Of a stretch of DNA of 22,140 bases, positions 6,282 to 22,140 are shown piece by piece. Each line of letters begins with the position of its first letter. Position 1 is the stretch's first letter. Under the pieces are notes generated by a model. The model did not search any database. It saw nothing but the letters and a program-made list of their open reading frames with translations, and had not been told where the DNA came from. The DNA is from a virus: IMG/VR virus record IMGVR_UViG_3300034071_000677, positions 1 through 22,140 of that record, one strand, 5' to 3'. Position numbers and translations under genes: made by a program.

Positions 6282-6283
6282 AA

Positions 6284-6840: not shown

Positions 6841-6851
6841 GTAATATCTAT

Positions 6852-6867: not shown

Positions 6868-6877
6868 TAGTTCTAAT

Positions 6878-6916: not shown

Positions 6917-6928
6917 GAGCTAATTATA

Positions 6929-6937
6929 TGATATACT
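6929..6937 (+). promoter_or_regulatory. Extended -10 promoter candidate before tail chaperones
   Basis: TGATATACT differs by one base from the two TGATATAAT boxes found earlier. It lies after the two hairpins and 26 bases before the chaperone ATG, leaving room for an AGGAG ribosome site. No definite -35 element is visible. Confidence 0.4.
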
Positions 6938-6963
6938 TTCCTATCTAAATTAGGAGATGTGAA

Positions 6964-7284: not shown

Positions 7285-7321
7285 GTCCTGAGAAGCTACT
7301 CTTACACAGGGTAGCTAGGAC
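7269..7321 (+). promoter_or_regulatory. Programmed -1 frameshift signal (slippery site and stem-loop)
   Basis: In the zero frame the codons are GAG GGA AAC, giving G GGA AAC, the canonical X XXY YYZ heptamer GGGAAAC (7269-7275). After a nine-base spacer comes a bulged stem: GTCCT (7285-7289) pairs with AGGAC (7317-7321), and AGCTAC (7294-7299) pairs with GTAGCT (7311-7316), leaving GAGA bulged on one side. A slippery heptamer, a 5-9-base spacer and a stable stem are the known parts of bacterial and phage -1 frameshift sites. The zero-frame stop TAA (7282-7284) lies within the spacer. Confidence 0.92.
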
Positions 7322-7580
7322 ATTAGGTAAAACTGTATTCGAGATTGAACACACAATGTCAATCAATGAATTAAACTCATGGTCTGAGTATCTATCACTT
7401 GAACCATCTAACTCAATTGAGATTCAACTAGCATTACTTACAACTGTTGTAGCTAATATGATGGGTGGAAAGAAATCAGTAGATGACTTTTTGATTACTA
7501 ATTATAAACCGCAAGTAGACAAACCGCTATTCATGGATGAAAGTGATGTCAAGAATATGTTTAGTCTAATCTCCAAATAG
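7275..7580 (+). CDS. Tail assembly chaperone GT extension, made by -1 frameshift
   Basis: This frame has no stop from the slippery site (entered at CGA, 7275) to TAG at 7578-7580 and adds 101 residues to the first 104 of the G-like protein, giving a predicted fusion of about 205 residues. The added part reads LLLHRVARTLGKTVFEIEHT then MSINELNSWSEYLSLEPSNS, the typical 'RxARTLGxTxxE...M...E...W..Y...EP' pattern of gpT-type and similar phage chaperones. An internal ATG at 7356 exists but lacks a good ribosome site and would cut off the conserved RVARTLGKTV segment, so independent translation is unlikely. In lambda the GT fusion recruits tube subunits to the tape measure, and the ratio of G to GT matters for assembly. 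Confidence 0.88.
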   Translation, partial: RSLSPEKLLLHRVARTLGKTVFEIEHTMSINELNSWSEYLSLEPSNSIEIQLALLTTVVANMMGGKKSVDDFLITNYKPQVDKPLFMDESDVKNMFSLISK

Positions 7581-7596
7581 TACCCTCTATGGGTAC
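7580..7596 (+). terminator. Hairpin overlapping the chaperone stop
   Basis: GTACCC (7580-7585), loop TCTAT, GGGTAC (7591-7596): a perfect six-base-pair stem starting on the last base of the stop codon. It resembles the ATACCC/GGGTAT hairpin after the tail tube gene. No T-run follows, so termination would be weak; RNA protection or processing is equally possible. Confidence 0.4.
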
Positions 7597-7612
7597 ACTT
7601 CAAAACCTTCGC

Positions 7613-7618
7613 TATAAT
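7613..7618 (+). promoter_or_regulatory. -10 box candidate before tape measure gene
   Basis: TATAAT followed by TACA, 44 bases before the tape-measure ATG. It lacks the upstream TG of the earlier sites, but shares the ten bases TATAATTACA with the site at 14027. No -35 element is recognised. Confidence 0.35.
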
Positions 7619-7661
7619 TACAATAACAAGTCAAACGACTATCCCACAATAAGGCTCTACT

Positions 7662-10600
7662 ATGGCTGATGATATTAAGTTAAACGTTGGTGCTACATTA
7701 GACATGAAAGGTCTTGAAGCTCAATTAAAAGAGCTGAAGAAACAACTAAAAGATGAAACAAAGAAGGTTGTATTTGAAGGTGATTCAGGCTCGTTAGCTA
7801 AGATTGAAAAGCAGATTACTAGAGTAAATAAGTTAATATCAGATGGATATGCAAAGCAAAATAAACTAGCAGAACAATCTCTTACTCATCAAGAAAAGCT
7901 ACAGCTAAAAAGACTTGATAACAAGAAGCTTATCCTACAAAAAGAATTAGTAGCTGAGCAGACCAATCAGAAAGCAATACAAAATGCTCATATCAAATCT
8001 ATGGAATCTATGGTTAGTAGACATAAGATTGCATATGAAAAACTAAAGGCTCAAAACAAGCTAAATGTTAATGAGCAGATATATGGATTTAGAGCTGTAG
8101 AGCAAGCCAGTAAACAATCTCAGCAGAATATGCTTAATGATGCAAAAGTAGCTAAAGCTAAGATTGCTAAAGTAAATAGTGATTATGCTAAAACATTTAT
8201 GGGTTCGCTTACAGAAGGAACGACATTTGGTCATAAGCTTGCAACAACAGCACAATATGCAATAGCTGGTTCTAGTCTATATGCGCTTGCTGGAGCATTT
8301 ACATCGCTTAAAGATGCTGTTGTGGAATCAGATAAATACCTGCAAATGTTTAAAGGTGTACTTGAATTAAATGATGTAAAAGCTAAAGAATTACAGCAAT
8401 CAATATTTAATGTAGGCAAAGAATTTGGTGGTACAACACAGGGTATTAGCGAAGCAGCATTACAATTGGGAAGAGCTGGTCTTGAAGGTGAAAAATTAGC
8501 TACTGGACTAAAGGTAGCATCACAAGCTGCATTGATTTCTGGAGATAGTATTGAGAATGTAACAGAGATGCTGTCTTCTTGGAGTATAGCATACCAAATA
8601 GACGATATGAAAAGACTTGGCGATGTTATGGTAAAGGTAGCAAATGAGTCGCTACTGTCTATAGATGGCTTGAAGACTGCTACATCATACATAACTGCTG
8701 CTGGAGCTTCTGCTGGAGTTACAGCGGAAAATCTAATCTCATTAGCTGGGGCTTGGAAGCAAACAGGTAAAGCTGATTCTATTGTTGGTACAGAAATTAG
8801 ACGTTTGTTTAGCCAAATAGAAGGTGGTTCTGAAGAGGCTAGAAAAGCCTATTGGGCTATGGGCATTGATATTGATAAAGTGAATAAGGCTCTTAAGTCT
8901 GGTGATAAAGCTACTCAAGAATCGGCAATGAAATCATTCATGGCGCAGATGGGTACATATGAGAAACTTCCTAAAGCACAAAAAGAAGCTGTTGATAAAA
9001 TACTTGGAACTATGCAAGTTCTAGATAAACAGACTATCCAATCTGGGTTTATTGCTGGTAGGGAATATGCAGATATGGCTAAGGCTGCTGATAACGCTAG
9101 TGGTTCACTGGATGAAGCATCTAAGAAGATTTCTCTTAGTTATGAGAAGATGTGGGAGAGGATTAAAGCAGCTGGAGTTGAATCTGCTGTAAAGCTAGAA
9201 GAAGGATTTAAAAAGTCATTCTCTGGTTCAAGCACTACTGCTGAGCAATTCGATACAAAGATGATTGAGCTGTCTAAGACATTTAATGCTGTAGCAGAAT
9301 CAGCTGGACTTCTTGCTGGAGAAATAGCTACACCATTAGTTACAGCAATTGGTGGGGCTGTAACGGCTCTAGGTAGCTTAGTTGGAATAGCGTCATCATT
9401 TGCATCATACGCTAAAGATGCAACTACTGCTGTTGCTGGAATGACTGGAGGATTCTCAACATTAGCAATTGAGATTGGAGTTGCAGCTGTAGCATTCAAG
9501 AAATTCCCAATGATAACTATTATAGCAGAAGCACTAAGATTAATAGATATGTATAGAGAAATTCTTGATCTAAAGAATCAGATTAATAGAGATGGATTAC
9601 AGTCAAGTGCAAGTACCGCATCTGCTAAAGATACTAGCATGGTTGCTGGATACAAAAGTAAGTCTGATAAGCTAAAAGAAGCTGTTAGAATTGAAACTGA
9701 ACTTGTATCAAGACTGAACAAGTTAACTTCAATTACAGATGAGCAGAGAGCTAGAACTGATTCAGCTACTAAAAATAAGCTTGACAATTCAATAATAATA
9801 TTATCAAAAAGACTAGAGTCTATACGCAAACTAAAGTCTGATTTACAAGTAGTTGAAAAGAAAGATAAGCCAATAAAAGTAGTAGATACATCTGCTGTAG
9901 GAGTAATGCCTACAACTAAAAAAGAAAAAACTGCAAAGCAGATTGCTGATGAGGCTGAGAGATTAGCTAGACAAGAGCTAAAAAATAAGATAGCTCTAAT
10001 AAACAAAGAAGAGCAATTAGCGTTTATTAAGTACGGTATATTTGATAAAGAATCACAAAGCCAATATCATGCTGGTATTACGCTGCAAAGAATTGAAGAC
10101 ACTACTAAAGAGTACAAGTCTCATGCTTGGGCTGTTGACGATATTAGTAATGCTGAGAAGGCTAGACTTGATGCTGTAGTTGATATACTAGGAGCTAATC
10201 AGAAGTTTGCTATTGAAAAAGCCAATGAGTTAGACGTGTTAAAGGCAAAGGCTAATCTTGAATCAGCCATGTTTGAAGAGTCTAAGATTCGTATGCAGTT
10301 TGAGCTTGATATGGCAGAAGCTATTTCAAAATACAATACATCTCCAGCTGGAACTGAAAGGGATAGCAAGATAGTAGCTGATGCAGAACTAGCAATAGCT
10401 AAACAGAATAAGTCATTTGATGAACTAGCAATTAAAGATGCAAATACTCTTCGTGATATACGTATTGAGATAGCAGACCAACAAGCTTCAATTGCTGATG
10501 GCATGACAGTATGGGCTGACTCAATAGGAAAGATAAATAGTGAGTATGGAAATGTAGCTAATTCAATTTCTGGCATATATGCCTTTCAAAAGAAAGCGGC

Positions 10601-13600
10601 AGTAGCACAAGAGCAGCTTGAAATAAAGTATGCCAAGAAGGCAGAAGGTAGAGACAAAAAAGATTTGAAATCTGCACAGTTCTTTGCTGACCTAGAGGAA
10701 GAGAAGTCAAAAGAGCAGGCTATCATTGACTATAATAACTATCAAGCTCAACTTGATATGTATGGCAATCTAGCTGGAGCTATGTCTAGTATGTTTAAAC
10801 AAGGCTCTAAGGAAGCAGCTGCATTCCAAATCATACAAACTGCACTAGCAGGAATATCTGGTGTCACAGCTATCCTTGAACAAGGAAAAGGAGACCCATA
10901 TACTTCGTGGGGAAGAATGGCTGCTATGGCTGCTATTGTAATACCAATGGTAACTTCTATCGGGGGAAGCATAAAGACTATGTTTGGTGGAGAAAAGGTA
11001 TCTACATCATCTGACGCATTCTCTTCTATGGCTGCAAATGATGGTAAAGGTTCTGTTCTTGGGGATGCATCAAAGGCTTCAGAGTCAATAGCTAACTCTC
11101 TTGAGCTTATGGGAGATATAGCTAAGCCTGAGTTTGCGTTAATTTCACAGATGAATAAATCGCTTATATCTATTGACCAGAAGATTGGTGGAGTTTCAAG
11201 CTTATTGCTACGTCAAGGCGGTTTTGCCTTTGGTGAAGGATACGAAGGATTTGATACAGGATATTCCAATAACATAAGTACTACATCTGGAGTTGGTGGA
11301 CTAGCGTCAAAGGCTCTTGGAGTTGGTGCTATGGGTATGGCTGGAAGTGCAGCTTTAGGATTAGGTTCATGGGCTGCTCTAGGCACACTTGGACCAGTTG
11401 GAATAGCTGTAGCCATAGCTGATAAGCTACTTCTAGGTGGAGCAATATCTGGAGTTATAAATAGTGCTGTTGGAAGCATAGTTGGCGGAATATTCGGCAA
11501 AACATCCGTATCGCAAACTATGACCGATTCAGGTATTTATTTTGCAGATGCATTATTGACAAGTGCTAAAGAGCAATTTGAGGGTAGTGCGTATCAAACT
11601 ATATCAACTACAGTAAGCAAGAAGTCGTGGTTTAAAAAGTCATCGAGTACATCAATAGTCACTCACTTTGACGAATTGAATGGCGAGTTAGAACGACAAT
11701 TCAGTCTTGTGCTAGGTGGACTATATGATACTACAATGCTTGCTGGCAATGCGTTAGATGCATCCGCCTTATCTGTAGGGGCAAGCCTTGATAACTTTGT
11801 TGTATCCATTGGGAAAATCTCCCTCAAGGGTAAGACTGGTGATGAGATACAAGAAACGCTAAGTGCTATATTTGGCAAAATTGGTGATGATATTGCGCTA
11901 ACCACATTTCCACTGTTAACAGCCTTTCAAAATGTAGGTGAGGGTCTATTTGAGACGATGAGTCGTGTGTCAGTAGGTATGGAAGAAGCTGAATACTACA
12001 TCAACCGTTTGGGTTATGCATTTGATGATATTTCATATCTTGACATACTAAATAAGCAAGGTGATGTAGGCTTTGAAGCATTAATGCAGTCTATAGCAAA
12101 TGCTAATAATGTAACCAAAGACTTAAGCAATGGTCTTATAGAGCTTATGGATGCGGCAGGTGGAACAGCAGAGGAGCTATATTCATTATACAACGCACTA
12201 GACTCATTGGGTCTTATGCTTTCATCTGTAGGCATAGATAGCATTATGTTGACTCAAGCAATGATAGCTGGAGCTGGTGGTATCGAACAGCTTGCAAGTG
12301 GTATCTCTGACTACATAGATGGGTTCCTAGCTGAGTCAGAACAAACTATGTACAAAGTATCACTATTGGTAGAGCAGTTTGATAGACTCAACTTAACTAT
12401 GCCAGATAGCAAAGCTGGTTTCAAAGAGCTGGTTGATGGTATTGATACCACAACAGAAGCTGGACAAGACCTATATGGAAGAGTAATTCTTCTAAGTAGC
12501 GCATTTGATGAAGCATCTGAGTCAGCTGAGAATGCTAGAAATAGTTATGTTGAATTGTTCTCACGAATTGATAGAATACTAAATCCTACAGCATTCAAGA
12601 AACTGGCTGAACTATATCCATTAATAGGTACAGCTACGCTTGAGAATGCTAATGATGTAATATCAAAGCTAGAAGAAGCTCGTGATAGTGAGCTGAACTC
12701 AATACAGAGCATAATTAACGCTGTAGCTAGTCTAAATGACCTTTCTAAGTCCATTAGAGATACTGCAATGGGTACAACTCTAAGTAGCTCACAGGCTCAA
12801 TACAGCTCAATGTACACACTGATTGAAACTGCTATTGCAAACAATACTGATTTCACTGGATATGTTGCTGATTTTACAAAGTCTGCTAATGACTATGCAA
12901 ATAACATTAAAACAAATGCAACTTCATTGGCTGACTATCAATATCAATCACTTGTATTGGCAAATGAGATTAGCTCTTTAGCTACTTCAGATGATTCAAC
13001 TACTCTTGGCGATATTAACGATACGTTTATAGATTACATCACTGAGTTACAAGCAAGTCTTGAGTCGCAGTTTGCGTCTTTATTTGGAGATGAGACATTA
13101 AGTGTTTTGCTTACTGGCACAGAGACAGGTATGGGTGACTATATTAAATTGCTGTACCAAGCACAGGCAGATGCTAAAGCAAAAGAAACAGCGCCCTTAT
13201 CAGCTTCTACTTTCACTGCTGGACATACGCTTGGCACTCAGGAGAGAATTGACTTTGCAAAAGCAACAGGATTAACTATAGGCTCTCAAGAGTTTGAAAA
13301 AGCAATTATAGATATACAAGGCTTCGATACTCAGGCAGATGATACTTCTTACTTGAAGCAACTATCGGGGCTAAGTGGTTCATCATTGTCAGACCCAACT
13401 ATGATGAAGATAATAAAGTCACTTGGTGACAGAGCCCCAGAAGATGCACAAGTAGCGTACTCAGCTGTTCAACAATCACTACAAGATAGTGCTCAAAGCG
13501 AATACTTAGCTTCTCAAGCAGCTAGAGCAAACAACCTATCTGCCTATACAGAGATAATGGGTGTTGTAAGTAGATTCCAAAAGATTCATAAAGACTGGTG

Positions 13601-14024
13601 GCAGAGTACCAATGAGATGCAAGACAATGCTATACTTAATAAGTATGGCACTGGGTTTAATACCAACGAGAAGCGTGGTGAAAATGCTAACCAAGCAATG
13701 TATGACTCTTATGTTCGTCTTGCCAATAGTTATCTAAGTGCAGCAGATAGATATAATATTCCTCTGAAGGATTACTTTGGATTCCAGTCTGGAGGATATA
13801 CTGGAAATATTGGAGTAGATGATTTTGCTGGTATCGTACATGGACAGGAATATGTAGTTAACGCTCAGACAACTAAAGATTTAGGACTGAATAACTCATC
13901 TGGTGTCTTTGAAGAGCTGCTTAATGAAATCAGTGATTTAAAGAATCTAACAATAAAGCTTGTTGCAGATAGTTCAAAGCAACTAAGTACCCAAAGAGCT
14001 ATGCTGGCTGAAAGCGTAGCTTAG
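7662..14024 (+). CDS. Tape measure protein
   Basis: 2120 residues; the longest gene by far. It sets tail length and is thought to aid DNA entry. Residues about 10-150 are Lys/Glu-rich coiled coil. Near residues 185-470 lies a TP901-type tape-measure domain, including GGTTQGISEAALQLGRAG, then SAGVTAENLISLAGAWKQTG and GTEIRRLFSQIEGG. Hydrophobic Gly/Ala segments occur near 550-585 and about 1218-1280, candidates for membrane insertion. More coiled coil fills 650-1070, and Ser/Thr-rich helical sequence follows. The C-terminus carries GYTGN, then DFAGIVHGQEYVVNAQTT, the common tape-measure ending. At the usual 0.15 nm per residue it predicts a tail of about 320 nm. An AAGG site seven bases upstream supports the ATG. 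The frame is intact throughout. Confidence 0.96.
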   Translation: MADDIKLNVGATLDMKGLEAQLKELKKQLKDETKKVVFEGDSGSLAKIEKQITRVNKLISDGYAKQNKLAEQSLTHQEKLQLKRLDNKKLILQKELVAEQTNQKAIQNAHIKSMESMVSRHKIAYEKLKAQNKLNVNEQIYGFRAVEQASKQSQQNMLNDAKVAKAKIAKVNSDYAKTFMGSLTEGTTFGHKLATTAQYAIAGSSLYALAGAFTSLKDAVVESDKYLQMFKGVLELNDVKAKELQQSIFNVGKEFGGTTQGISEAALQLGRAGLEGEKLATGLKVASQAALISGDSIENVTEMLSSWSIAYQIDDMKRLGDVMVKVANESLLSIDGLKTATSYITAAGASAGVTAENLISLAGAWKQTGKADSIVGTEIRRLFSQIEGGSEEARKAYWAMGIDIDKVNKALKSGDKATQESAMKSFMAQMGTYEKLPKAQKEAVDKILGTMQVLDKQTIQSGFIAGREYADMAKAADNASGSLDEASKKISLSYEKMWERIKAAGVESAVKLEEGFKKSFSGSSTTAEQFDTKMIELSKTFNAVAESAGLLAGEIATPLVTAIGGAVTALGSLVGIASSFASYAKDATTAVAGMTGGFSTLAIEIGVAAVAFKKFPMITIIAEALRLIDMYREILDLKNQINRDGLQSSASTASAKDTSMVAGYKSKSDKLKEAVRIETELVSRLNKLTSITDEQRARTDSATKNKLDNSIIILSKRLESIRKLKSDLQVVEKKDKPIKVVDTSAVGVMPTTKKEKTAKQIADEAERLARQELKNKIALINKEEQLAFIKYGIFDKESQSQYHAGITLQRIEDTTKEYKSHAWAVDDISNAEKARLDAVVDILGANQKFAIEKANELDVLKAKANLESAMFEESKIRMQFELDMAEAISKYNTSPAGTERDSKIVADAELAIAKQNKSFDELAIKDANTLRDIRIEIADQQASIADGMTVWADSIGKINSEYGNVANSISGIYAFQKKAAVAQEQLEIKYAKKAEGRDKKDLKSAQFFADLEEEKSKEQAIIDYNNYQAQLDMYGNLAGAMSSMFKQGSKEAAAFQIIQTALAGISGVTAILEQGKGDPYTSWGRMAAMAAIVIPMVTSIGGSIKTMFGGEKVSTSSDAFSSMAANDGKGSVLGDASKASESIANSLELMGDIAKPEFALISQMNKSLISIDQKIGGVSSLLLRQGGFAFGEGYEGFDTGYSNNISTTSGVGGLASKALGVGAMGMAGSAALGLGSWAALGTLGPVGIAVAIADKLLLGGAISGVINSAVGSIVGGIFGKTSVSQTMTDSGIYFADALLTSAKEQFEGSAYQTISTTVSKKSWFKKSSSTSIVTHFDELNGELERQFSLVLGGLYDTTMLAGNALDASALSVGASLDNFVVSIGKISLKGKTGDEIQETLSAIFGKIGDDIALTTFPLLTAFQNVGEGLFETMSRVSVGMEEAEYYINRLGYAFDDISYLDILNKQGDVGFEALMQSIANANNVTKDLSNGLIELMDAAGGTAEELYSLYNALDSLGLMLSSVGIDSIMLTQAMIAGAGGIEQLASGISDYIDGFLAESEQTMYKVSLLVEQFDRLNLTMPDSKAGFKELVDGIDTTTEAGQDLYGRVILLSSAFDEASESAENARNSYVELFSRIDRILNPTAFKKLAELYPLIGTATLENANDVISKLEEARDSELNSIQSIINAVASLNDLSKSIRDTAMGTTLSSSQAQYSSMYTLIETAIANNTDFTGYVADFTKSANDYANNIKTNATSLADYQYQSLVLANEISSLATSDDSTTLGDINDTFIDYITELQASLESQFASLFGDETLSVLLTGTETGMGDYIKLLYQAQADAKAKETAPLSASTFTAGHTLGTQERIDFAKATGLTIGSQEFEKAIIDIQGFDTQADDTSYLKQLSGLSGSSLSDPTMMKIIKSLGDRAPEDAQVAYSAVQQSLQDSAQSEYLASQAARANNLSAYTEIMGVVSRFQKIHKDWWQSTNEMQDNAILNKYGTGFNTNEKRGENANQAMYDSYVRLANSYLSAADRYNIPLKDYFGFQSGGYTGNIGVDDFAGIVHGQEYVVNAQTTKDLGLNNSSGVFEELLNEISDLKNLTIKLVADSSKQLSTQRAMLAESVA

Positions 14025-14026
14025 GG

Positions 14027-14032
14027 TATAAT
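14027..14032 (+). promoter_or_regulatory. -10 box candidate before tail-tip genes
   Basis: TATAAT (followed by TACA) beginning two bases after the tape-measure stop and about 24 bases before the next ATG. It repeats the TATAATTACA found before the tape measure. Its distance to the start codon leaves only a short leader. No -35 element is clear. Confidence 0.35.
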
Positions 14033-14055
14033 TACATCAATAAAAGGAACAGCAG

Positions 14056-14331
14056 ATGGCACAACCAGTTTATGCAATACGTTATTTGGGTACAGTGAGA
14101 GTAGTTAAAAACACCAAATACACAACAGCTTCGCTATTATTATCATTTGCAGGAGCTACAGTTGCAAAGCTGTCAACTGACATATCTGGCGATACAGTAG
14201 GGATAACTGTAAATAATACACCAATGGCTAAATACAAGGATGGTGAAGAGCAGTACGTACAAACAGGAGATACTTTTGAGTTTGACAAGGACTGTACTTT
14301 AAAAATAGGTCTCTATAAGGCGGTTACATAA
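14056..14331 (+). CDS. Small tail-tip protein, unknown
   Basis: 91 residues, beginning MAQPVYAIRYLGTVRVVKNT and mostly beta-strand with alternating hydrophobic residues: YTTASLLLSFAGATVAKL, then VGITVNNTPMAKYKDGEEQY. I do not recognise a family. It follows the tape measure by 31 bases, has a good AAAGGAAC site, and overlaps the next gene (TAATG). Position and size suggest a distal tail or tail-tip component, like the short proteins after the tape measure in other siphoviruses. No signal peptide or membrane segment is seen. Confidence 0.6.
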   Translation: MAQPVYAIRYLGTVRVVKNTKYTTASLLLSFAGATVAKLSTDISGDTVGITVNNTPMAKYKDGEEQYVQTGDTFEFDKDCTLKIGLYKAVT

Positions 14332-15368
14332 TGAGGTATTTAAAGCAAGAGATAGAAGCCTTTGTGTCATCCAATATACCAGAGAATACAGAAGTGTGGT
14401 CTAATGAGCAAGTTGCAGCAGGAAGCTTTACTGTTGGTAAGACATATACCATACTATATGTTGGGACAACAAACTTTACTTTAATTGGTGCATCATCAAA
14501 CACTATCGGAACTGTATTCACTGCCACTGGAGTTGGAAGCGGAACTGGTACAGCTATGATTACATATGTAGCTGGAGACTTGCTTTTATTGGAGCCTTAC
14601 ATATATAAAGCTGTTGCTATTAATTCAGATAAAAGACCAGATATATATACTGGAGTATATTGGGTAAAGTGGAGTGTAAGCAATAGACTAGCAATGCTAG
14701 ATTTATCTGCTAATTCACAGAGTGAAGTTATTGGAGCTGATCTAGTTGTTGTGTTTAATCAAGTAGGTATTGAGACTCTTGCTATAGGTAACTATGAGGC
14801 ATCTGGGATTAAAGTTGAGGTATTAACTGCGGATGAGTTAACTGTTTTGTGGACTTATGAGAATAAAGACTTCTATAATATTGCAGTAGATGACTATTAC
14901 TCATACATTTATGAGCCTTATGATTTCGCAGTGTCCAGAGGGATTAAGATAGACATTCCTGTTCTTGGAAGTAAAATTAGGGTTACGCTATACAGCTCAG
15001 GCATAAGAGCTGCTTGTGGCTTCTTGGCTGGAGGCTTATCTGTATATATGGGAGAAACTTTATGGGGAGTAGGCTTTAAGTATAACTCATTTGCAATTAA
15101 ATCAACTGATGATTTTGGTACTCTATCTGTAACCAAAAGGGCAGTGCAAGACTTGGTGGATTTTGAGACTGTATTTGACTCTACATACCTAATGAGAATA
15201 CGTCAAAACATCAAGAGTATTTATAATGATATAATTGTATTTATAGTTGAGGATGACTCTAACAATTATGAGAACTTATTGACACTAGGGGTAGTTGAAT
15301 CTGCTTCAATAGTTCTAAGTAACTCTCAAAAAACTACTATGACTTGGTCTATAGTTGAAGCTATCTAG
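14331..15368 (+). CDS. Tail-tip protein of a conserved phage family, with inserted module
   Basis: 345 residues. From about residue 105 on, the order is WVKWSVSNRLAMLDLSANSQ, then strands with LAIGNYEASGIKVEVL, a YYSYIYEPYDF segment, IKIDIPVLGSKIRVTLYSSG, ACGFLAGGLSVYMGETLWG and a late TKRAVQDLVDFETV. I recall this sequence, with 'NR.AM.D....Q' and 'A..GFLV.G....G.T..G', from a widespread family of tail proteins in siphoviruses and podoviruses whose exact role is unsettled. Residues about 29-77 look like a foreign Gly/Thr-rich module (listed separately). The gene is coupled to the one before it (TAATG) and lies 11 bases before the fibre gene. With few other genes between the tape measure and fibre, it may be a hub or fibre-attachment protein. 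Confidence 0.7.
   Translation: MRYLKQEIEAFVSSNIPENTEVWSNEQVAAGSFTVGKTYTILYVGTTNFTLIGASSNTIGTVFTATGVGSGTGTAMITYVAGDLLLLEPYIYKAVAINSDKRPDIYTGVYWVKWSVSNRLAMLDLSANSQSEVIGADLVVVFNQVGIETLAIGNYEASGIKVEVLTADELTVLWTYENKDFYNIAVDDYYSYIYEPYDFAVSRGIKIDIPVLGSKIRVTLYSSGIRAACGFLAGGLSVYMGETLWGVGFKYNSFAIKSTDDFGTLSVTKRAVQDLVDFETVFDSTYLMRIRQNIKSIYNDIIVFIVEDDSNNYENLLTLGVVESASIVLSNSQKTTMTWSIVEAI
14415..14561 (+). other. Inserted Gly/Thr-rich module in the tail-tip protein
   Basis: Codons about 29-77 of the tail-tip protein encode AAGSFTVGKTYTILYVGTT followed by LIGASSNTIGTVFTATGVGS and GTGTA. From memory, near-identical segments (V/G-Y-I--VGTT-FT-IGAS-N--G--F-ATG-GSGTGTA) recur in unrelated phage structural proteins. 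Here it interrupts the region before the family's conserved NR-AM-D segment. It is probably a compact beta domain that moves between virion proteins and may add binding surface. Confidence 0.6.
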
Positions 15369-15379
15369 GAGAAATAAAT

Positions 15380-16828
15380 ATGGCAATTACTCAAAACATA
15401 ACCGCTTTACCACCAGCTGGTCATAGGGGCGTTGATATTCGTACAGTCTTTGTCACAAAGCAAGAAGCTTTTCAGGACACGCTGCAAGCCGTGACAGTTA
15501 CTCAGTTAAACAGTTTCGCAACTCAAGCTAATCAACTTCAAGTAGAAGTAAACGCAACACAACAGTTGGCAGAGGATTATGCGGTAAAAACTGCTGCTAC
15601 CGTTGAGACTGGGACATACTCAGCTAAAGAGTTTGCACTTGGTGATTTGACAGCAACAGGCGGTTCAGCCAAAGCATGGGCTGTTGATGCCTCAAACCCT
15701 GATGGTATTGCTACAAGTGGGTCAGCTAAGTCTTGGGCTACTAAAGCCACAACAACAGTAGATGGTACATCTTACTCATCAAAAGAATACGCTAGCGGAG
15801 ATGCTACGGCTTCTGGTGGTTCAGCAAAGGCATGGGCGATAGATTCCTCTAGCCCAAATGGCACTACAGATAAGAGTGCAAAGACATTAGCTACAGAAGC
15901 GGCTGCATCTGCCTCTACGGCAACAACACAAGCTGGGTTGGCGACAACTGCTAGGATTGCGGCTGAAGCTGCACTAGATGCATTTGATGACCGATACTTA
16001 GGGTCTAAAACATCAGCACCAACTTTAGATAATGATGGCAACGCCTTAGTTTCTGGTGCTTTGTATTTTAATGACACGCTCAATGCAATGTATGTGTACG
16101 ATTTGGGTACGACAACTTGGATTTCTCTTAAGTTCAATCCTACAGACCACACGACATTAAGCAATATAGGAACAAGAACTCATACTCAACTTGAGTCGGA
16201 TATTGCATTAAAAGCAAATATCGCTTCTCCAGTATTTACGGGTAATGTAACGGGTCTTGGCGTTTCGACTGGTACGAGTTTTAACAGTATTACTGGATTA
16301 GCCTCAGTAGCGCCAGTAGCTCCAGCCGTAACCGCAGTTGTGGGTACATCCACTCTAGCTGCTAGACAAGACCATGTGCACCCAATTGACACAAGCAGAG
16401 CACCTCTAGCAAGTCCAGCACTAACTGGAACGCCAACAGCTCCAACTGCAGCTACTACAGTAAACTCAACTCAACTAGCTACTACAGCGTTTGCTACTCC
16501 AAGAACTGATGCAACTGGTGCATCAGTAATGCCAGCTGGTACAACAGCACAACGTCCAGTAAGTCCAGTAAACGGTTATATGAGATACAACTCAGAACTA
16601 TTAGCTATGGAAGCATATGTTAATGGAGCATGGGGTTCTGTAGGTGGTGGAGCTACTGGTGGTGGTACTGATAATGTGTTCAATGAAAATGAGTATGTAG
16701 TCACTACGAACTACACTATTCCAGCTGGTAAGTCTGCTCTAGTAGTAGGTGATGCTAATGGGGATTTAACAATAAATGCTGGTGTTGATTTAACAATAAG
16801 TGCAAATAGCAGATTGGTGGTAGTATAA
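15380..16828 (+). CDS. Tail fibre protein
   Basis: 482 residues; ATG 15380 follows AGGAG at 15367-15371. The N-terminus (about 1-65) is the likely virion-attachment part. Two copies of a roughly 50-residue repeat follow (about 74-170), each with Y-S-KE-A-GD-T--GGSAKAWA. After a short helical stretch come YLGSKTSAPTLDNDGNALV, then TTWISLKFNPTDH, and the trimeric-fibre motifs DHVHPIDTSRAPLASPAL and TGTPTAPTAA. The H-V-H triplet resembles the HxH motif that binds metal in some trimeric fibres. The C-terminus, including YTIPAGKSALVVGDANG, is a common end cap of phage fibres. Its stop overlaps the start of the lectin-type gene (TAATG), implying that the two are made together and perhaps assemble together. 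Confidence 0.9.
   Translation: MAITQNITALPPAGHRGVDIRTVFVTKQEAFQDTLQAVTVTQLNSFATQANQLQVEVNATQQLAEDYAVKTAATVETGTYSAKEFALGDLTATGGSAKAWAVDASNPDGIATSGSAKSWATKATTTVDGTSYSSKEYASGDATASGGSAKAWAIDSSSPNGTTDKSAKTLATEAAASASTATTQAGLATTARIAAEAALDAFDDRYLGSKTSAPTLDNDGNALVSGALYFNDTLNAMYVYDLGTTTWISLKFNPTDHTTLSNIGTRTHTQLESDIALKANIASPVFTGNVTGLGVSTGTSFNSITGLASVAPVAPAVTAVVGTSTLAARQDHVHPIDTSRAPLASPALTGTPTAPTAATTVNSTQLATTAFATPRTDATGASVMPAGTTAQRPVSPVNGYMRYNSELLAMEAYVNGAWGSVGGGATGGGTDNVFNENEYVVTTNYTIPAGKSALVVGDANGDLTINAGVDLTISANSRLVVV
15598..15890 (+). repeat. Tandem protein-level repeat in tail fibre
   Basis: Two adjoining units of about 150 bases. Unit 1 (about 15598-15750) encodes TYSAKEFALGDLTATGGSAK and AWAVDASNPDG; unit 2 (about 15751-15890) encodes SYSSKEYASGDATASGGSAK and AWAIDSSSPNG. 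They are similar in protein and partly in DNA, showing duplication within the fibre shaft. Confidence 0.8.
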
Positions 16829-17928
16829 TGGCAAGTATAGGTGTAAATAATAATGGTGTAATAAATGCTAATGGTGAGCCAATAGGTAGTGTGTTGAAGA
16901 AGCCTTTTATAGGTGCTCCACTATTTAGCAAAGCTTCTGTATCTTCTATTACTATTCCAGTAGGTACAGCTGTTATGGTAAACAGTAAGTGCATATCAGT
17001 AGCAACTACAGCATATACTCTCTCACTTAACAGCGTAGGAGTAGGCGCACTCGATACAGGTGCTAAAGCCGCAGGAACGGATTACTACGTCTATGCTCTA
17101 GAAGCGGGTGGGTTTATCATCTCTGCCAATGCTACAAATCCTACTGGATACACTACTGTGAACTCTCGCCAAATAGGTGGGTTTCATTATGGTGTTATTC
17201 CTGAAGCGTTTACGGCTATCAACAACATCGTTGCGGCAGATGCTACGAAGATCGCTGGTATCAATGCGTACTCTTTTTGGGATTTGAAGTTTAGAGCTTC
17301 AAATGGTGATAATCGTGGTATGTTCAAAGCCAATACAGGCAAATGGTATGACCTCTATTTGCTTAATACAGACCATCATCTCTATGGTACATCGGCAGCT
17401 GGTAAAACCATCGCGGGTGGTGCGGTACTTAATGGTCGTAACTTCCCTAAAATTCCTACCTTCTACGGTGGAAACGGTACGGCTACCTACGGAACACTCA
17501 CATGGTTTGAAGCCGCAGAGATTGGTAAAGCATACGGCAAAGACATGATCTCGTATGAAGAGTTTTGTGCCATCGCTTATGGGGTTCTAGAAGCATCATC
17601 CGCTTCAACTGCCGATACCGGCATCACTCAGCATCTCGCCAATTACACCTCAAAGTTTGGGATCTGTATGGCTACCGGGTGTCAATGGATTTGGGGCAAA
17701 GATTTACATATGCGCCCAGACGGTACAGGATGGGCATACCATACTGAGACCGAAGGTCGAGGATCGCTCTATGCGTATCAATACGGACCAACAGCGGCTT
17801 TCTTCGGCGGCGATCGTGACAGCACTTCGAGCTCCGGTTCGCGCGCGTCTTATTGGGCCGGCAACGTTTGGTATTCGGGTTGGGCCGTCGGTTGTCGTTT
17901 CGCCTGTGATCACTTGGAACTTGCGTAA
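16828..17928 (+). CDS. Receptor-binding protein with C-type-lectin domain, DGR variable-protein-like
   Basis: 366 residues. The first 65 or so (MASIGVNNNGVINANGEPIG...) have phage-like A+T-rich codons. Then a beta-rich part typical of DGR target proteins appears: GTDYYVYALEAGGFIISANA and NSRQIGGFHYG. The C-terminal domain has ISYEEFCAIAYG, then FGICMATGCQWIWGKDLHMR and the ending FFGGDRDST, SGSRASYWAGN, WAVGCRFACDHLELA. This is the formylglycine-enzyme-like C-type-lectin fold used by Mtd-type phage receptor-binding proteins and other DGR targets, in which surface residues of the last 40 positions vary. Here they include residues 329-333, 342-346 and 349-353. From about 17035 G+C rises sharply, so the gene appears chimeric. 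It overlaps the fibre gene and is followed by a DUF4376-type protein. No reverse transcriptase lies in the window. Confidence 0.88.
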   Translation: MASIGVNNNGVINANGEPIGSVLKKPFIGAPLFSKASVSSITIPVGTAVMVNSKCISVATTAYTLSLNSVGVGALDTGAKAAGTDYYVYALEAGGFIISANATNPTGYTTVNSRQIGGFHYGVIPEAFTAINNIVAADATKIAGINAYSFWDLKFRASNGDNRGMFKANTGKWYDLYLLNTDHHLYGTSAAGKTIAGGAVLNGRNFPKIPTFYGGNGTATYGTLTWFEAAEIGKAYGKDMISYEEFCAIAYGVLEASSASTADTGITQHLANYTSKFGICMATGCQWIWGKDLHMRPDGTGWAYHTETEGRGSLYAYQYGPTAAFFGGDRDSTSSSGSRASYWAGNVWYSGWAVGCRFACDHLELA

Positions 17929-17945
17929 TGAGCGAAAGCGAATGG
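17035..17945 (+). mobile_element. Probable horizontally acquired lectin segment
   Basis: Hand counting gives about 49% G+C for 17041-17940, with most 60-base lines of 17581-17940 at 52-60%, against about 42% just before and 37-40% just after. The segment contains GATC at 17250, 17547, 17661, 17762, 17812 and 17908; CCGG four times (about 17627, 17684, 17833, 17857); and GGCC twice (about 17855, 17882). The remaining window has four GATC and no CCGG or GGCC that I could find. The left boundary lies within the lectin gene and the right just past its stop, so it is an in-frame domain replacement. No insertion sequence or integrase borders it. Confidence 0.65.
17791..17928 (+). other. Candidate DGR variable region (VR)
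   Basis: Codons at positions that vary in DGR lectins are GAT, GAC, AGC, TAT, GCC, GGC, AAC, TAT, GGT and GCC. Most end in T or C, as expected if a template carried AAT or AAC codons whose adenines were randomised. Invariant scaffold codons (GGC GGC; TCG CGC GCG TCT; GGT TGT CGT TTC) lie between them. The VR ends with CGCCTGTGATCAC and the stop. One codon, TGG at 17881, does not fit an AAY origin. The high G+C continues past the stop to about 17945, including GCGAAAGC, a short GAAA-loop hairpin. GC-rich sequence and a hairpin follow the VR of known DGRs, but this stem is only two base pairs. No template repeat was found. Confidence 0.55.
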
Positions 17946-17954
17946 AGAAATTAA

Positions 17955-18371
17955 ATGAAACAATTAATTAATAAAGTAACTGGATTACAAGTAGGTTTTA
18001 CAACTGAATGGGTTGTATTAGATAATGGGGAGTGGAGAACACTTACTAATGATGAGATGGACTTAGTAGATGCTGAAGCAACTGTACAAGAAGCACTTAA
18101 AACTATACAGGAAGCTAAAGAGGCAAAGCTACAAGCACTACAGCAAATCACTGTAACGACTACATCAGGTAAAGTGTTTGATGGTAGAGACATAGACCAA
18201 CAACGTATGGTATCAGCCATTATGAGTGCTGATGTTGTAGGGATAACAGAAACATACTGGAAGCTTGCAGATAACTCAGTGGCTATGGTAACACTGGATG
18301 AACTTAAAGAAGCACTAGCATTGAGTATACAAGCTCTAGGTGTAATTATTATGATGGAGGTAGTGGTATGA
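17955..18371 (+). CDS. DUF4376-type protein, possible fibre chaperone
   Basis: 138 residues. The C-terminal half contains GKVFDGRDIDQQRMVSAIMS then ETYWKLADNSVAMVTLDELK. The F-GR--DQ-RM--AI and W--ADNS---VT--EL order is that of DUF4376, a domain found in proteins encoded next to phage tail fibres. A helical, Glu/Ala/Lys-rich linker precedes it, and the N-terminus resembles short fibre-associated proteins. Such proteins are often suspected of fibre assembly or of being fibre-tip components; the exact role is unknown. GGAG at 17944-17947 lies seven bases before ATG, and the gene returns abruptly to A+T-rich codons. It overlaps the next gene by four bases (ATGA). Confidence 0.72.
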   Translation: MKQLINKVTGLQVGFTTEWVVLDNGEWRTLTNDEMDLVDAEATVQEALKTIQEAKEAKLQALQQITVTTTSGKVFDGRDIDQQRMVSAIMSADVVGITETYWKLADNSVAMVTLDELKEALALSIQALGVIIMMEVVV

Positions 18372-18865
18372 GTCTTATACTAAATGGTGATACTGGTGTG
18401 AGCATGGTACAGAGTGGAGTAGTAGAAGATGCTGATTTGAATCTAAGTGTTAAACCTATGTTTAGTGCTTATCAGAACGGAAGTACGTCCTGTCTAAATG
18501 CTGTAGTAACAAAAATAGTATTTAATATAAAAGAATTTGATACTACAAATTCTTATGATGCAACAACTAATTATAGATTCACACCTCAAAAAGCTGGATA
18601 TTATCAAGTAAGTGGAGCTATAACCTTTCCAGCATTAACAGGCAACAGCCAAGCTACAATTTATAAGAATGGGGTGCAACATAAGGCTATTGCTTTATAT
18701 TGTAATGGGGTAAGTCATACCCCCCTTGTTAGTTGTATTATATACCTTAATGGAACAACTGATTATATTGAGTTTTATGGGTATCAAACAAGCGGAAGTA
18801 CATTATCAACAGTTAGTGGAAGACCTGATATAACATACTTCCAAGCACACTATATAGGAGCATAA
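18368..18865 (+). CDS. C1q/TNF-like jelly-roll fibre protein
   Basis: 165 residues. After a short N-terminus (MSLILNGDTGVSMVQSG, similar in layout to the next gene) comes PMFSAYQNG, VFNIKEFDTTNSYDATTNYR and FTPQKAGYYQVSGAITFPAL. This F-AY...EFDT-N-YD...F-P--AGYY sequence is the signature of the C1q-like jelly-roll domain. Later strands (ATIYKNGV, SCIIYLNGTTDYIEFYGY) complete the fold. C1q domains trimerise and bind surface ligands, so this is a good candidate for a virion surface or receptor-binding protein. It starts inside the previous gene's stop (ATGA) and ends one base before the next gene. Confidence 0.82.
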   Translation: MSLILNGDTGVSMVQSGVVEDADLNLSVKPMFSAYQNGSTSCLNAVVTKIVFNIKEFDTTNSYDATTNYRFTPQKAGYYQVSGAITFPALTGNSQATIYKNGVQHKAIALYCNGVSHTPLVSCIIYLNGTTDYIEFYGYQTSGSTLSTVSGRPDITYFQAHYIGA

Positions 18866-18866
18866 C

Positions 18867-19307
18867 ATGAGCATATCACTAAAAAATGATGCTGGTACAT
18901 TCAGCACAAATCTAAATCAAAGTAATCCTACTGCTAACGTAAATATAGCATTGCCTACTACAAGTGGGACTATGGCACTAGATGCAGAAACAATAGTAAA
19001 CTCAAATGGGACAGCTATAAAATACTCAGATGGGACTATGATATGCCACAATAGACTAGCTACTATTCAGACAGCAAATTCTGCAACTGGCTCTCTATTT
19101 TACTCCTCTGGCTTGAGCATTACTTTTCCAGCTACATTTATCTCAGTACCATCTATATCTGTTGGATGCTATGATGCTCTGATAGGGTTTTCGTGGGCTG
19201 TAATTAGTGGAACCCCTACAACAACTGGCTACATATCAGTTATTATGGCAGCTACAACTGGGTCTAATTCAAAGCCTTCTTATATAGCAGTAGGTAGATG
19301 GAAATGA
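18867..19307 (+). CDS. Small tail-fibre-like protein
   Basis: 146 residues. The N-terminus MSISLKNDAGTFSTNLNQSN and LPTTSGTMALD are typical of short phage fibre attachments. Then comes SNGTAIKYSDGTMICHNRLA, the 'NG--IKY-DGTMIC-N' motif common near the tips of tail fibres and base-plate spikes, followed by strands YSSGLSITFPATFIS and a terminal YIAVGRWK. The same end pattern is found in fibre tip proteins that form trimers. It follows the C1q-like gene by one base and overlaps the next gene by four. I infer a third surface-exposed adhesin in this cluster; a structural role is likely but its ligand is unknown. Confidence 0.75.
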   Translation: MSISLKNDAGTFSTNLNQSNPTANVNIALPTTSGTMALDAETIVNSNGTAIKYSDGTMICHNRLATIQTANSATGSLFYSSGLSITFPATFISVPSISVGCYDALIGFSWAVISGTPTTTGYISVIMAATTGSNSKPSYIAVGRWK

Positions 19308-19933
19308 AATACCTAGAATACACATCAATCCTACTGTTCACACTCTTCCGTAAGGTATTTGGATTAGTGTGGATATACGTAGCACTACCATTTCGCAAGT
19401 ATGCTAGAAACACTGTGTACAACTATGTGCTACAAAACGGTGTATATCTGCAACGACTTCTAGAGCGACCTATCGAAAATCAGCAACTGTGGAAATACTA
19501 CTATATTCGCCCATATCACGGCACTACTGGTGGCTATATCAAGAAACGCAATGTGTCTTGGATTGAGTACAAGCTAGTCTATTGGTTGATATGGGGATGG
19601 CTTGATGACGATTGTAATGATGATACGTTTGACTTTGGTCATGTAGTTAGATTACGTAGTGAGGGTTGGTTTTGGGTATGGTTGCTAAAAGGTGCTGAAC
19701 GTAAAGCATACGGTAATACGTTTGACTTAGGTGACAGCATTACCAGCAACTTCCACTTTGGAGCTACTACTCAATGGACTTGGAGAAATACAGCATACAA
19801 CTTCCGTTACTTCCAATATGAGAAGAGTCCTACTGATAAGAACTTGTTTCTAATTACTGTTGGCTCATATAAGTTTGGATGGGTTAAGGATGAAGATAGA
19901 GATAATTACAGCTTAGCTTTTGGTGGTGTGTGA
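19304..19933 (+). CDS. Trp-rich membrane protein of unknown function
   Basis: 209 residues from ATG 19304, which overlaps the previous stop (ATGA); an ATG two codons earlier (19298) is possible. Residues about 6-28 (ILLFTLFRKVFGLVWIYVAL) form a probable N-terminal membrane segment. The remainder is strikingly aromatic: WLIWGWL, GWFWVWL and TQWTWRNTAYNFRYFQYE, with 13 or so tryptophans. I do not recognise the family. It may be a membrane-anchored protein acting late, between adhesion and lysis genes. The stop overlaps the next start as TGATG. Codon use matches neighbours, so it is not a recent import. Confidence 0.62.
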   Translation: MKYLEYTSILLFTLFRKVFGLVWIYVALPFRKYARNTVYNYVLQNGVYLQRLLERPIENQQLWKYYYIRPYHGTTGGYIKKRNVSWIEYKLVYWLIWGWLDDDCNDDTFDFGHVVRLRSEGWFWVWLLKGAERKAYGNTFDLGDSITSNFHFGATTQWTWRNTAYNFRYFQYEKSPTDKNLFLITVGSYKFGWVKDEDRDNYSLAFGGV

Positions 19934-20142
19934 TGTACAAATATTTAATCATCATTGACGTATGGATTAACCGTAAGGTATTCAGGGGTCAAGATGAAAC
20001 CATGTCAGACCGTATGGGTGAGAACCTACTAGAGAAAGACTACGGGTGTTGCAAGTGGAGAGTAGTAGTGTGCAAGGTGTTGAGTTGCATTGACCCACGT
20101 AAGGGTAATCATTGTATTAAAAGCATAGAAGAGGTGGAGTGA
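19933..20142 (+). CDS. Small conserved phage protein, unknown function
   Basis: 69 residues from ATG 19933, in the overlap TGATG with the upstream stop; a GTG one codon earlier is in frame but less likely. The order VWINRKVFRGQDETMSDRMG, then C-C-W, and DPRKGNHCIKSIE resembles small proteins of many phages and prophages with 'N--F-G---ETLS-R-G...D....HC--S-E'. Their function is not known to me. Four cysteines, including CC, and a histidine might bind a metal, but this is conjecture. It is coupled by TGATG to the next gene. Confidence 0.6.
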   Translation: MYKYLIIIDVWINRKVFRGQDETMSDRMGENLLEKDYGCCKWRVVVCKVLSCIDPRKGNHCIKSIEEVE

Positions 20143-20546
20143 TGGAACATGCAGTAGAGATTGATAATATTAAGAAAGACTTACGTATCACTCAGGATAG
20201 CGTGTTATTAATTCATCAAGACCTCAAGCAGATGAGCAAAGGAATATCCGAAATGGCATCATCCATGAAAATCATGGTAGAGGTTCAATCTGATATGCGG
20301 TTAATGAATGAGCGTATTGAATCAAGACATATGGCTCAGAAAGATATTAACAAACTAACCCAAGATGGTTTGGACAATATTAATACTCGCATCTCTACTA
20401 AGTGCAGTATAGTAGAGTCACAAGCTAGGGATGGTAGGACTGCATACAATATTCTTAAATGGATTGGCATCACTTTTGGAACATTAGTATGTGGTTCTGT
20501 ATTCGTAACATGGTTGTACGTAGTAGCATTGCAAGGAGTTAAATAA
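20142..20546 (+). CDS. Coiled-coil protein with C-terminal membrane anchor
   Basis: 134 residues from ATG 20142, overlapping the upstream stop as TGATG; GAGGTGGAG just before serves as ribosome site. Residues about 1-95 are heptad-like and charged (DNIKKDLRITQDSVLLIHQD and more), followed by WIGITFGTLVCGSVFVTWLY, a single C-terminal membrane helix. This layout resembles XhlA-type haemolysin/holin accessory proteins and other small phage proteins that precede endolysins. Its overlap with the endolysin gene (TAATG) suggests a role in lysis, though a structural or exclusion function cannot be ruled out. Confidence 0.62.
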   Translation: MEHAVEIDNIKKDLRITQDSVLLIHQDLKQMSKGISEMASSMKIMVEVQSDMRLMNERIESRHMAQKDINKLTQDGLDNINTRISTKCSIVESQARDGRTAYNILKWIGITFGTLVCGSVFVTWLYVVALQGVK

Positions 20547-21001
20547 TGCAAGGGTTTAGCACATTTTTTAGCTTTGAGGAGCTTACAAACTCAGCTGGTC
20601 ATCCTGACCTTGTGTCTCTCAATCGTACTGATGCAATGCGATATATCAACTCAGGCAAGAGATTATCCAAACTGCTAGAGTCAATCAGAGGTATACTTGG
20701 GAATAAGCCATTAAAGGTCAATAGTGGCTTTAGAAATGAAGCACTCAATAAAGCGGTAGGAAGTAAGTCTAAAGCATCAAAGCACACAGTGTTTGAGGCG
20801 GTAGATATTACACCGTCTATGCCTATTAAAGAAGCTTTTAATGCACTAATGAACGCACATAGAGCAGGGTTATTGCCTGACTTAAGGAAAGTATTACATG
20901 AGGGCACTTGGTTGCATTGTGAGGTAGCTATGAGCGTCGGTGATTATCGTGGGTTCTTTGTTTCCAAAGATGGCAATAAAACTTTTGAAAAGGTTGCATA
21001 A
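20546..21001 (+). CDS. Endolysin, M15-type zinc peptidase
   Basis: 151 residues. The family pattern is clear: VNSGFRNEALNKAVGSKSKA, then SKHTVFEAVDI and EGTWLHCEV. In M15_3-type (D-Ala-D-Ala carboxypeptidase/L,D-endopeptidase) enzymes the S-xH-xxx-A-D and W-H motifs bind zinc. The predicted ligands here are His80, Asp87 and His124, with Glu119 as likely catalytic base. The enzyme would cut peptide cross-links of peptidoglycan at the end of infection. It has no signal peptide or membrane segment, so it needs a holin. It starts in a TAATG overlap and ends in another with the putative holin gene. Confidence 0.9.
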   Translation: MQGFSTFFSFEELTNSAGHPDLVSLNRTDAMRYINSGKRLSKLLESIRGILGNKPLKVNSGFRNEALNKAVGSKSKASKHTVFEAVDITPSMPIKEAFNALMNAHRAGLLPDLRKVLHEGTWLHCEVAMSVGDYRGFFVSKDGNKTFEKVA

Positions 21002-21204
21002 TGCTTAAATTAATATCAGACTCAGTTCGTCCAATACTTACCTATGTATTCGCCACTATGTATATCGCAGTATCTACATGGGGCGTTGCTATCGGAAAGA
21101 TAGAGTTCGCTATGTATTTTGCACAAATAGGTACTATGGTTGGAATGATGATTAGTTTTTGGTTTGGTGAAAAATCAGCTTTGAAAGACCCAAGGGGGGA
21201 ATGA
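21001..21204 (+). CDS. Putative holin, two membrane helices
   Basis: 67 residues. Hydrophobic segments at about 12-32 (ILTYVFATMYIAVSTWGVAI) and about 35-54 (FAMYFAQIGTMVGMMISFWF) are joined by a short loop, with a charged tail GEKSALKDPRGE. The 'RP--TY-F' start and the 'SFWFGEKSALK' end match a common class of small phage membrane proteins linked to lysis. It lies between the endolysin and the spanins, and is translationally coupled to the endolysin. As the upstream coiled-coil protein also has a membrane anchor, which of them triggers lysis cannot be settled from sequence. Confidence 0.72.
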   Translation: MLKLISDSVRPILTYVFATMYIAVSTWGVAIGKIEFAMYFAQIGTMVGMMISFWFGEKSALKDPRGE

Positions 21205-21534
21205 ATGTGGATACAGCTATTAACACAATATTGGAAGTATGTATTGGTCTTAGTTGTATTGCTATCATTATCAGCATCATTGGTATTGATGAAGATATCA
21301 AACATTAATCTACAAGCTACTGTTGCTCTACAAGCTAAAGACTTAGCATATATATCTAAAGAGCGTGAGCAAGATGCTAAAGACTATGAGACTGCTATCA
21401 ACGAGTACACTGAAAATATGAAGCATAGAGACACTGTATTCAAAACTAAGACTGAGAAAATTTATATATGGGAGGATGATAAAAATGACAGCTGCCAAGA
21501 TGTTATTAATCGTTTTAACAATTATACTTTTTAG
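21205..21534 (+). CDS. Rz: Inner-membrane spanin, Rz-like
   Basis: 109 residues; a GGGGGGA run just before supplies the ribosome site. The N-terminus WIQLLTQYWKYVLVLVVLLS then LSASLVLM is a membrane anchor, followed by a periplasmic, coiled-coil-prone region (LQAKDLAYISKEREQDAKDY) and a C-terminal part with one Cys. Rz proteins span from the inner membrane to an outer-membrane lipoprotein, and their complex fuses the two membranes at lysis. The next gene begins inside this one in a different frame and encodes that lipoprotein, which makes the call secure as a pair. Confidence 0.82.
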   Translation: MWIQLLTQYWKYVLVLVVLLSLSASLVLMKISNINLQATVALQAKDLAYISKEREQDAKDYETAINEYTENMKHRDTVFKTKTEKIYIWEDDKNDSCQDVINRFNNYTF

Positions 21535-21715
21535 TGGGTGCTTTGGTTGTGAGCCACAAGTTAAGAAGTGTGTCACTCCTAACGTTAAAAAGCCTATAAT
21601 GAATAATACAATTGTAAAAACGGATAAAGAAGTATTTGAAAAGGTGATGAGCAATTATCTACTTATGGAGAAATACGCAGAAGATTTGCTTGATTCCAAT
21701 CTAGTTTGTAAATAG
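21485..21715 (+). CDS. Rz1: Outer-membrane lipoprotein spanin, Rz1-like, overlapping Rz
   Basis: 76 residues from ATG 21485, chosen because GGAGG at 21471-21475 then lies nine bases upstream; the in-frame ATG at 21476 touches that site. The N-terminus MTAAKMLLIVLTIILFSGCF is a lipoprotein signal with an FSGC lipobox (Phe at -3 is unusual; Leu is common), so the acylated Cys would be residue 19. The mature part is short, with Cys-Phe-Gly-Cys then proline-containing segments TPNVKKPIM, shorter in proline than lambda Rz1. It overlaps Rz by 50 bases in another frame, the classic overlapping spanin arrangement. The last gene of the top-strand late block. Confidence 0.78.
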   Translation: MTAAKMLLIVLTIILFSGCFGCEPQVKKCVTPNVKKPIMNNTIVKTDKEVFEKVMSNYLLMEKYAEDLLDSNLVCK

Positions 21716-21728
21716 TCCTAAAGGACTA
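21713..21728. terminator. Bidirectional hairpin at the convergent junction
   Basis: TAGTCC, loop TAAA, GGACTA: a six-base-pair perfect stem that includes the stop codon of the outer spanin on the top strand and the stop codon of the minus-strand ORF on the other. CTTCT follows on the top strand; the bottom-strand side runs into ATTTACAAACT. It lies exactly where two transcription units converge. The T-runs are weak, so termination may be partial. Confidence 0.5.
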
Positions 21729-21897
21729 CTTCTACTCTACCATCTCTACCAAACTCTACTCCATCAGAGAAGCATTGAGCCAATAGTCTAATAAGAGCAT
21801 CTTCTGCTTTCTTGTTCCCTTTCCATAGCACTTCAGGTACAGTACGTACTAAAAGTCTGAGATACTGGTTTTCTTTATCAACAACTACTGTTTCCAT
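21718..21897 (-). CDS. 59-residue hypothetical protein
   Basis: Starts METVVVDKENQYLRLLVRTV, continues PEVLWKGNKKAEDALIRLLA and ends with CFSDGVEF then GRVEVVL. Reading the minus strand, AAAAGGAC lies just upstream of the ATG, a good ribosome site. It overlaps the stop of the upstream minus-strand gene by 20 bases, so translation is likely coupled. Codon use is normal, and the stop sits in the convergent hairpin. The composition (acidic and basic with a helical Leu-rich middle) gives no family; function unknown. Confidence 0.62.
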   Translation of the reverse strand: METVVVDKENQYLRLLVRTVPEVLWKGNKKAEDALIRLLAQCFSDGVEFGRDGRVEVVL

Positions 21898-22140
21898 TTA
21901 AGTCCTTTTCCAAGTCACGCTTTAATCGCTTCTCAATCAATGTAGCATAGCCTGATATATCATGCCAACTATCAATATGTTCTGGATTACCAGCTAGTAT
22001 TCTCGCTATCTTATGAACAATCATATCAAGTGATTCTTGCATATCCCAAGCAAGCTCATTCCAGTTACTACAAGTGGCTTCTCTCATCTCAAGCTTAATC
22101 ATTTGGCTAATCATTGACTGAACACTAAAATCACCATGTG
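21878..22140 (-). CDS. DUF6378-like phage protein, 5'-truncated
   Basis: The frame is open to the window edge; an ATG at 22114 starts a 78-residue version, but the sequence upstream (GDFSVQS) also fits the family, so the true start is probably outside. The core QESLDMIVHKIARILAGNPE then DSWHDISGYATLIEKRL has the pattern 'LDM...KIARIL-G-P---D---DI-GYA-L-E' of DUF6378 and related small proteins of phage and prophage genomes, common in early or metabolic regions. The start of the minus-strand gene set lies beyond this window. Confidence 0.75.
   Translation of the reverse strand, partial: HGDFSVQSMISQMIKLEMREATCSNWNELAWDMQESLDMIVHKIARILAGNPEHIDSWHDISGYATLIEKRLKRDLEKDLNGNSSC

Follow-up and report, generated by a model that had tools for sequence, protein, structure and literature searches.

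Where does the variable repeat (VR) of a phage gene get written when the phage itself appears to carry no DGR? The question is raised by IMGVR_UViG_3300034071_000677, a 22,140-base phage fragment from IMG/VR that was analysed over its whole length (hereafter the window) and that encodes, from left to right, terminase, portal, major head protein and tail genes. The original prediction placed a DGR-like variable lectin at 16828-17945. This lectin is real: its reading frame ends at 17928 and encodes a homologue of Mtd, with what comparison identifies as a genuine VR at the C-terminus. Mtd is a receptor-binding tail protein and the DGR target in Bordetella phage BPP-1. The features of the locus are the following.

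15380-16828, plus strand: tail fibre gene preceding mtd (phrog_38058 tail fibre, E 1.7e-22).
16828-17928, plus strand: mtd homologue, predicted receptor-binding tail protein and DGR target (Pfam, phrog and PDB matches).
17208-17574, plus strand: recombined tract, ~95% identical to the DGR-bearing L002/L004 and divergent from G001.
17796-17910, plus strand: VR (comparison of the window with G001, and alignment with template repeats).
17890-17909, plus strand: invariant VR 3' end (IMH-like), GGTTGTCGTTTCGCCTGTGA (alignment with the template repeats and VRs of relatives).
17930-17941, plus strand: post-VR motif GAGCGAAAGCGA, putative core of a GRNA-loop hairpin, conserved 3' of every related VR examined.
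17948-17954, no strand: junction at the position of the ~1.6-kb avd-TR-RT block of relatives, placed at the end point of homology (tblastn).
17955-18371, plus strand: DUF4376 tail gene (Pfam and tblastn).

The mtd ORF encodes a full-length Mtd homologue of 366 aa. It matches PDB entries 1yu4/1yu0 over residues 29-365 (E 7e-49 to 2e-47; 1yu4 E 6.9e-49), phrog_11262 (tail protein, E 2.4e-82) and, above the cut-off, Pfam mtd_2nd (E 2.5e-22). Homology places it in the Mtd family through both the second and the C-type-lectin domains. The AlphaFold model, built on a 7-sequence alignment, has a pLDDT of 32.6, and it is the homology to solved Mtd structures that points to a C-type lectin fold.

A near-identical phage is represented by G001 (IMGVR_UViG_3300042400_000575, an IMG/VR contig of 42,888 bp), so VR comparison within the lineage is between two phages. 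Their backbones show 10 mismatches in 1-11256 and 19 in 11484-16495. Between these blocks lies a tape-measure gene stretch that differs in length, at 227 bp in the window (11257-11483) and 146 bp in G001. The two mtd genes are identical outside the tract 17208-17574 and nine VR positions (17800, 17812, 17821, 17822, 17858, 17861, 17879, 17885 and 17887). Each of the nine corresponds to an A in the template repeats (TRs) of the relatives L002, L003, L004 and L051 (hypergeometric P about 1e-6), so that the VR carries substitutions at template adenines only (9/9). These differences lie within 88 bp, where 0.16 would be expected at the backbone SNP rate (P about 1e-13). The flanks of this stretch are identical in the two phages over 225 bp upstream and, with 0 differences in 17888-22140, over 4253 bp downstream.

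When aligned, the TRs of relatives read GG-NRDN-T..SGSRAS-NW-NN.VW-N.-NW-N-GCR. They thereby match, codon by codon, the earlier claim that the variable codons derive from AAT/AAC template codons, and variation between the two phages is confined to the predicted codons with the exception of the recombined tract. These comparisons confirm, at the level of sequence, that the C-terminus of mtd is a genuine VR. It appears to have changed recently and at adenine sites only, which is the signature of mutagenic retrohoming. The idea of a fixed variant captured from a DGR is, in its simple form, contradicted, since the VR differs at adenine-derived sites between near-identical phages.

About 20 relatives carry the canonical order mtd-avd-TR-RT, including a prophage in a Sulfuricurvum MAG. 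The carriers are L002, L004/G006, L005, L051, L054, L055 and most of L103-L115, and their full order is mtd-avd-TR-RT-DUF4376. In the IMG/VR relatives, a second copy of the C-terminal repeat is found ~400-500 bp downstream of the first, with AAT/AAC at the variable codons. The downstream copies are the template repeats, with the RT following and bAvd lying between mtd and TR. The L005 TR (3748-3867) is without 27 in-frame nt that are still present in the L005 VR; the next retrohoming might shorten that target by nine codons.

The Sulfuricurvum prophage belongs to MAG LH_M14 (G006), is the same as the IMG/VR contig G004 and carries a complete DGR. It has two Mtd-like targets 14.6 kb apart, and one TR explains both through adenine changes only. 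Because a single TR wrote two VRs at this separation, distance from the cassette is no obstacle. The second target (G006 C3 about 178697-179698; L037 8697-9698, minus strand) encodes 333 aa without the Mtd N-terminus and sits at the prophage edge, 14.6 kb from the TR, between DnaB-like helicase and DnaQ-like genes.

A second Sulfuricurvum MAG, from isolate C19 (G007), contains a VR of the window's template type: 79/82 non-adenine sites are identical to the window VR and 16/19 substitutions are at adenine sites. This result indicates DGR activity with a matching template type in the genus Sulfuricurvum. The corresponding TR is absent from the G007 assembly. An RVT_1 match on its contig C11 was rejected as the source: it does not lie near the target, and the DGR-RT protein search gave no match in G007. 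The G007 VR region at C4 1-253 (L022) has a 2-nt deletion inside the VR, causing a frameshift, at a contig end; it is either an assembly error or a broken target. The window phage itself very probably infects Sulfuricurvum; further genomes of this genus contain 70-75% matches to its genes at 19359-19638 and 20953-21194.

We found none of the machinery of these relatives in the window phage. A six-frame search for the RVT_1 domain, which detects the RT in BPP-1, L002, L004, L005 and L051, returned nothing in the window or G001. Likewise, tblastn gave no match in either contig to the L004 RT or to Avd, and no TR was found on either strand of the two. Candidate TR alignments within them were A-rich chance matches only (91/120 sites, 40 exact). 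The predicted absence of an RT or template repeat in view is thus borne out for the window and extends to its near-twin. With RT, TR and Avd missing from both contigs, the window phage is not itself a DGR.

The locus shows where the cassette would be expected. Exact homology to L004 and the other DGR loci stops at 17947, just 3' of the VR, and the avd-TR-RT block is therefore cleanly missing. At the relatives' cassette site, the window has 7 bp between the mtd region and the DUF4376 gene. Over its first 40 aa, the product of the latter shows 59-70% identity to that of the gene immediately 3' of the RT in relatives. No RT or Avd remnants are found at this junction.

The elements that a DGR needs in cis are retained. 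Outside the mtd ORF, 17929-17945 forms the post-VR recognition region. Every related VR examined, two different targets among them, is followed by the motif GAGCGRAAGCGA. In the second targets of G006 and G007, where the surrounding DNA is different, the flanks still pair (ACAT/ATGT in G006 and AAAGA/TCTTT in G007) around a loop of GAAA or GGAA. The window likewise has a post-VR hairpin with a GRNA loop; its short GC stem with tandem G.A positions is weaker than the 7-10 bp stems described previously (PMC3240598). GRNA-loop hairpins are required for target recognition in BPP-1 (Guo et al. 2011, PMC3240598), and the post-VR motif of the window resembles the BPP-1 hairpin.

Adenine-only changes in the VR, together with the absence of RT, Avd and TR from the window and G001, indicate that the DGR which wrote the VR resides outside this phage. 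Writing is either direct, in trans, or goes through recombination with a DGR-bearing relative, and both routes need a DGR outside this genome. We favour, by a modest preference, the trans DGR of a related prophage or co-infecting phage as the writer of the VR in this cassette-less Sulfuricurvum phage. The original prediction had suggested a host-encoded DGR acting in trans; the trans action is retained, and a DGR borne by a prophage or co-infecting phage is a likelier donor than a housekeeping one of the host.

We propose that the mtd locus lost, or never received, the avd-TR-RT block between mtd and DUF4376; it has kept what a DGR needs in cis, namely the VR, its invariant 3' end and the GRNA-type hairpin motif. 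The DGR itself would come from a second genome within the cell, with a related prophage or a co-infecting phage as the likeliest carrier. It would transcribe its TR and make adenine-mutagenised cDNA, which would then retrohome in trans into the VR of the window phage. In this scheme we infer the direct retrohoming onto the window phage, its host and the identity of the donor. The broader statement, that a natural phage without a DGR keeps its receptor-binding protein evolving by offering a competent VR to the DGRs of resident prophages or co-infecting phages, and thus by inter-genome tail hypermutation in trans, is in our estimation evenly balanced.

A search for the donor template covered IMG/VR, the genome contigs and 399 genomes of the Sulfuricurvum order. 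It yielded more DGRs of the same type and no exact cognate TR, the best TR having 14 non-adenine mismatches to the window VR. Taken together, the VRs of the window, G001 and G007 predict a template of the type GGC GGC AAT CGT GAC AAC ACT TCG AAC TCC GGT TCG CGC GCG TCT AAT TGG AAC AAC AAC GTT TGG AAT TCG AAT TGG AAC ATC GGT TGT CGT TTC GCC TGT AAY. The DGRs of G006, L002, L003 and L051 were consequently rejected as the direct donor, as each of their TRs has at least 14 non-adenine mismatches (15 for G006), for example GTGGAG versus TCGAGC. Matches outside Sulfuricurvum in a 22-base genome scan (L016, L017, L019-L021, L023) look like chance.

The strongest rival to writing in trans is that the writing took place on sister phages bearing a DGR and the resulting VR alleles were imported through homologous recombination at the 3' end of mtd, with nothing happening in trans on the window phage. 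Exchange of this kind has clearly affected the gene: the 367-bp tract at 17208-17574, which has 52-78% identity to G001 in most 60-bp blocks, is ~95% identical to the G006 prophage and L002, and so there has been DNA exchange between the window phage and phages that bear a DGR, very probably within Sulfuricurvum. The C-terminal part of the fibre gene shares 55% of its amino acids with the corresponding gene before mtd in L002 (tblastn). Within the fibre gene, each end of the G001 contig has a different allele of the region 15380-16370, with about 74% identity over part of the length, so that the fibre region also seems to vary by recombination. The tail module as a whole is common to phages with otherwise unrelated backbones. 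Moreover, G001 encodes a Sak4-like annealing protein, an exonuclease and an SSB, which could help such an import, and VR exchange between mtd genes could therefore mimic retrohoming in trans. Nevertheless, the change lies within 88 bp, between identical flanks and at adenine sites only, which demands a donor identical in both flanks and template type, and no such DGR-bearing sister is found in IMG/VR. We thus regard import as a credible but rather unlikely source of the VR differences.

It is improbable that a DGR of the phage itself lies in genome sequence outside both contigs, as the original prediction allowed in proposing that the phage might have an RT at another place. The window is a fragment, and our estimate of completeness is built on two contigs. 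Relative to the window, G001 has a circularly permuted order, and its two ends come together within the fibre gene that precedes mtd, where they overlap only in the divergent fibre region (126 bp at 92.9%) and do not close cleanly. Against this, the window joins fibre, mtd and DUF4376 gap-free and G001 continues from 22140 round to the terminase, so that the two jointly appear to cover the whole genome circle. G001 thus supplies the remaining genome, without RVT_1, Avd or TR. In addition, the cassette of the relatives lies directly 3' of mtd, at the very site of the 7-bp junction.

Least probable of all, and very doubtful, is a dead end in which the phage lost its DGR recently, writing stopped at that point and the VRs differ only through earlier activity. 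A clean deletion would account for the locus most simply, but both phages share the junction and identical downstream DNA, and the differences should accordingly postdate the loss unless recombination spread the deletion allele between phages with different VRs.

If the preferred reading of a DGR acting in trans is true, the host range of a phage can evolve without phage-borne machinery, and prophages may affect how superinfecting phages of their host evolve. Targeted hypermutation would become a service shared within the host cell, if a tail tip can be rewritten by the DGR of another genome. The system is testable, as both the cis signals and close donor systems are known.

How does this locus compare with known systems? 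Mtd of the window and of BPP-1 are homologous over almost their whole length (36-37% identity), the VR occupies the same C-terminal place, and the BPP-1 order mtd-avd-TR-brt is that of the close relatives of the window; the window phage differs in being without avd, TR and RT. The closest experimental parallel is BPP-1 deleted for avd-TR-brt: in lytic infection, a donor on a plasmid in the host rewrote the reporter target carried by this phage (Guo et al. 2011, PMC3240598). As in the window, the target with its IMH and hairpin is kept and avd-TR-brt is missing (PMC3240598). However, that phage was engineered and its rewriting from another replicon was shown, whereas the window phage is natural and its donor putative.

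Remote or second VRs within one genome are known from four gut prophage species (PMC12629997). In these systems and in the Sulfuricurvum prophage of G006, the cassette writes on a VR that lies at a distance from its RT, as proposed here, but TR and remote VR share one genome, whereas the genome of the window target is without a cassette. DGR surveys seek the VR beside the RT, and cassette-less targets are invisible to them; the survey of Roux et al. 2021 (PMC8144416) itself states that remote targets would go undetected. Three complete phage records, S-CBS1 and S-CBS3 of Synechococcus (L085 and L083) and P12026 of Marinomonas (L084), have an Mtd homologue and no RVT_1 match. They are RT-less Mtd phages like the window phage, their Mtd homologues showing only 30-35% identity, and are other possible orphan DGR targets. 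In the open-access literature we found no report of a phage target with adenine-specific variation and no cassette in its own genome, nor of one on which the DGR of a different genome writes. Judging from its VR and cis elements, the window mtd is therefore best described as a gene that works like a DGR target, an orphan target that is seemingly new in comparison with the remote VRs known so far.
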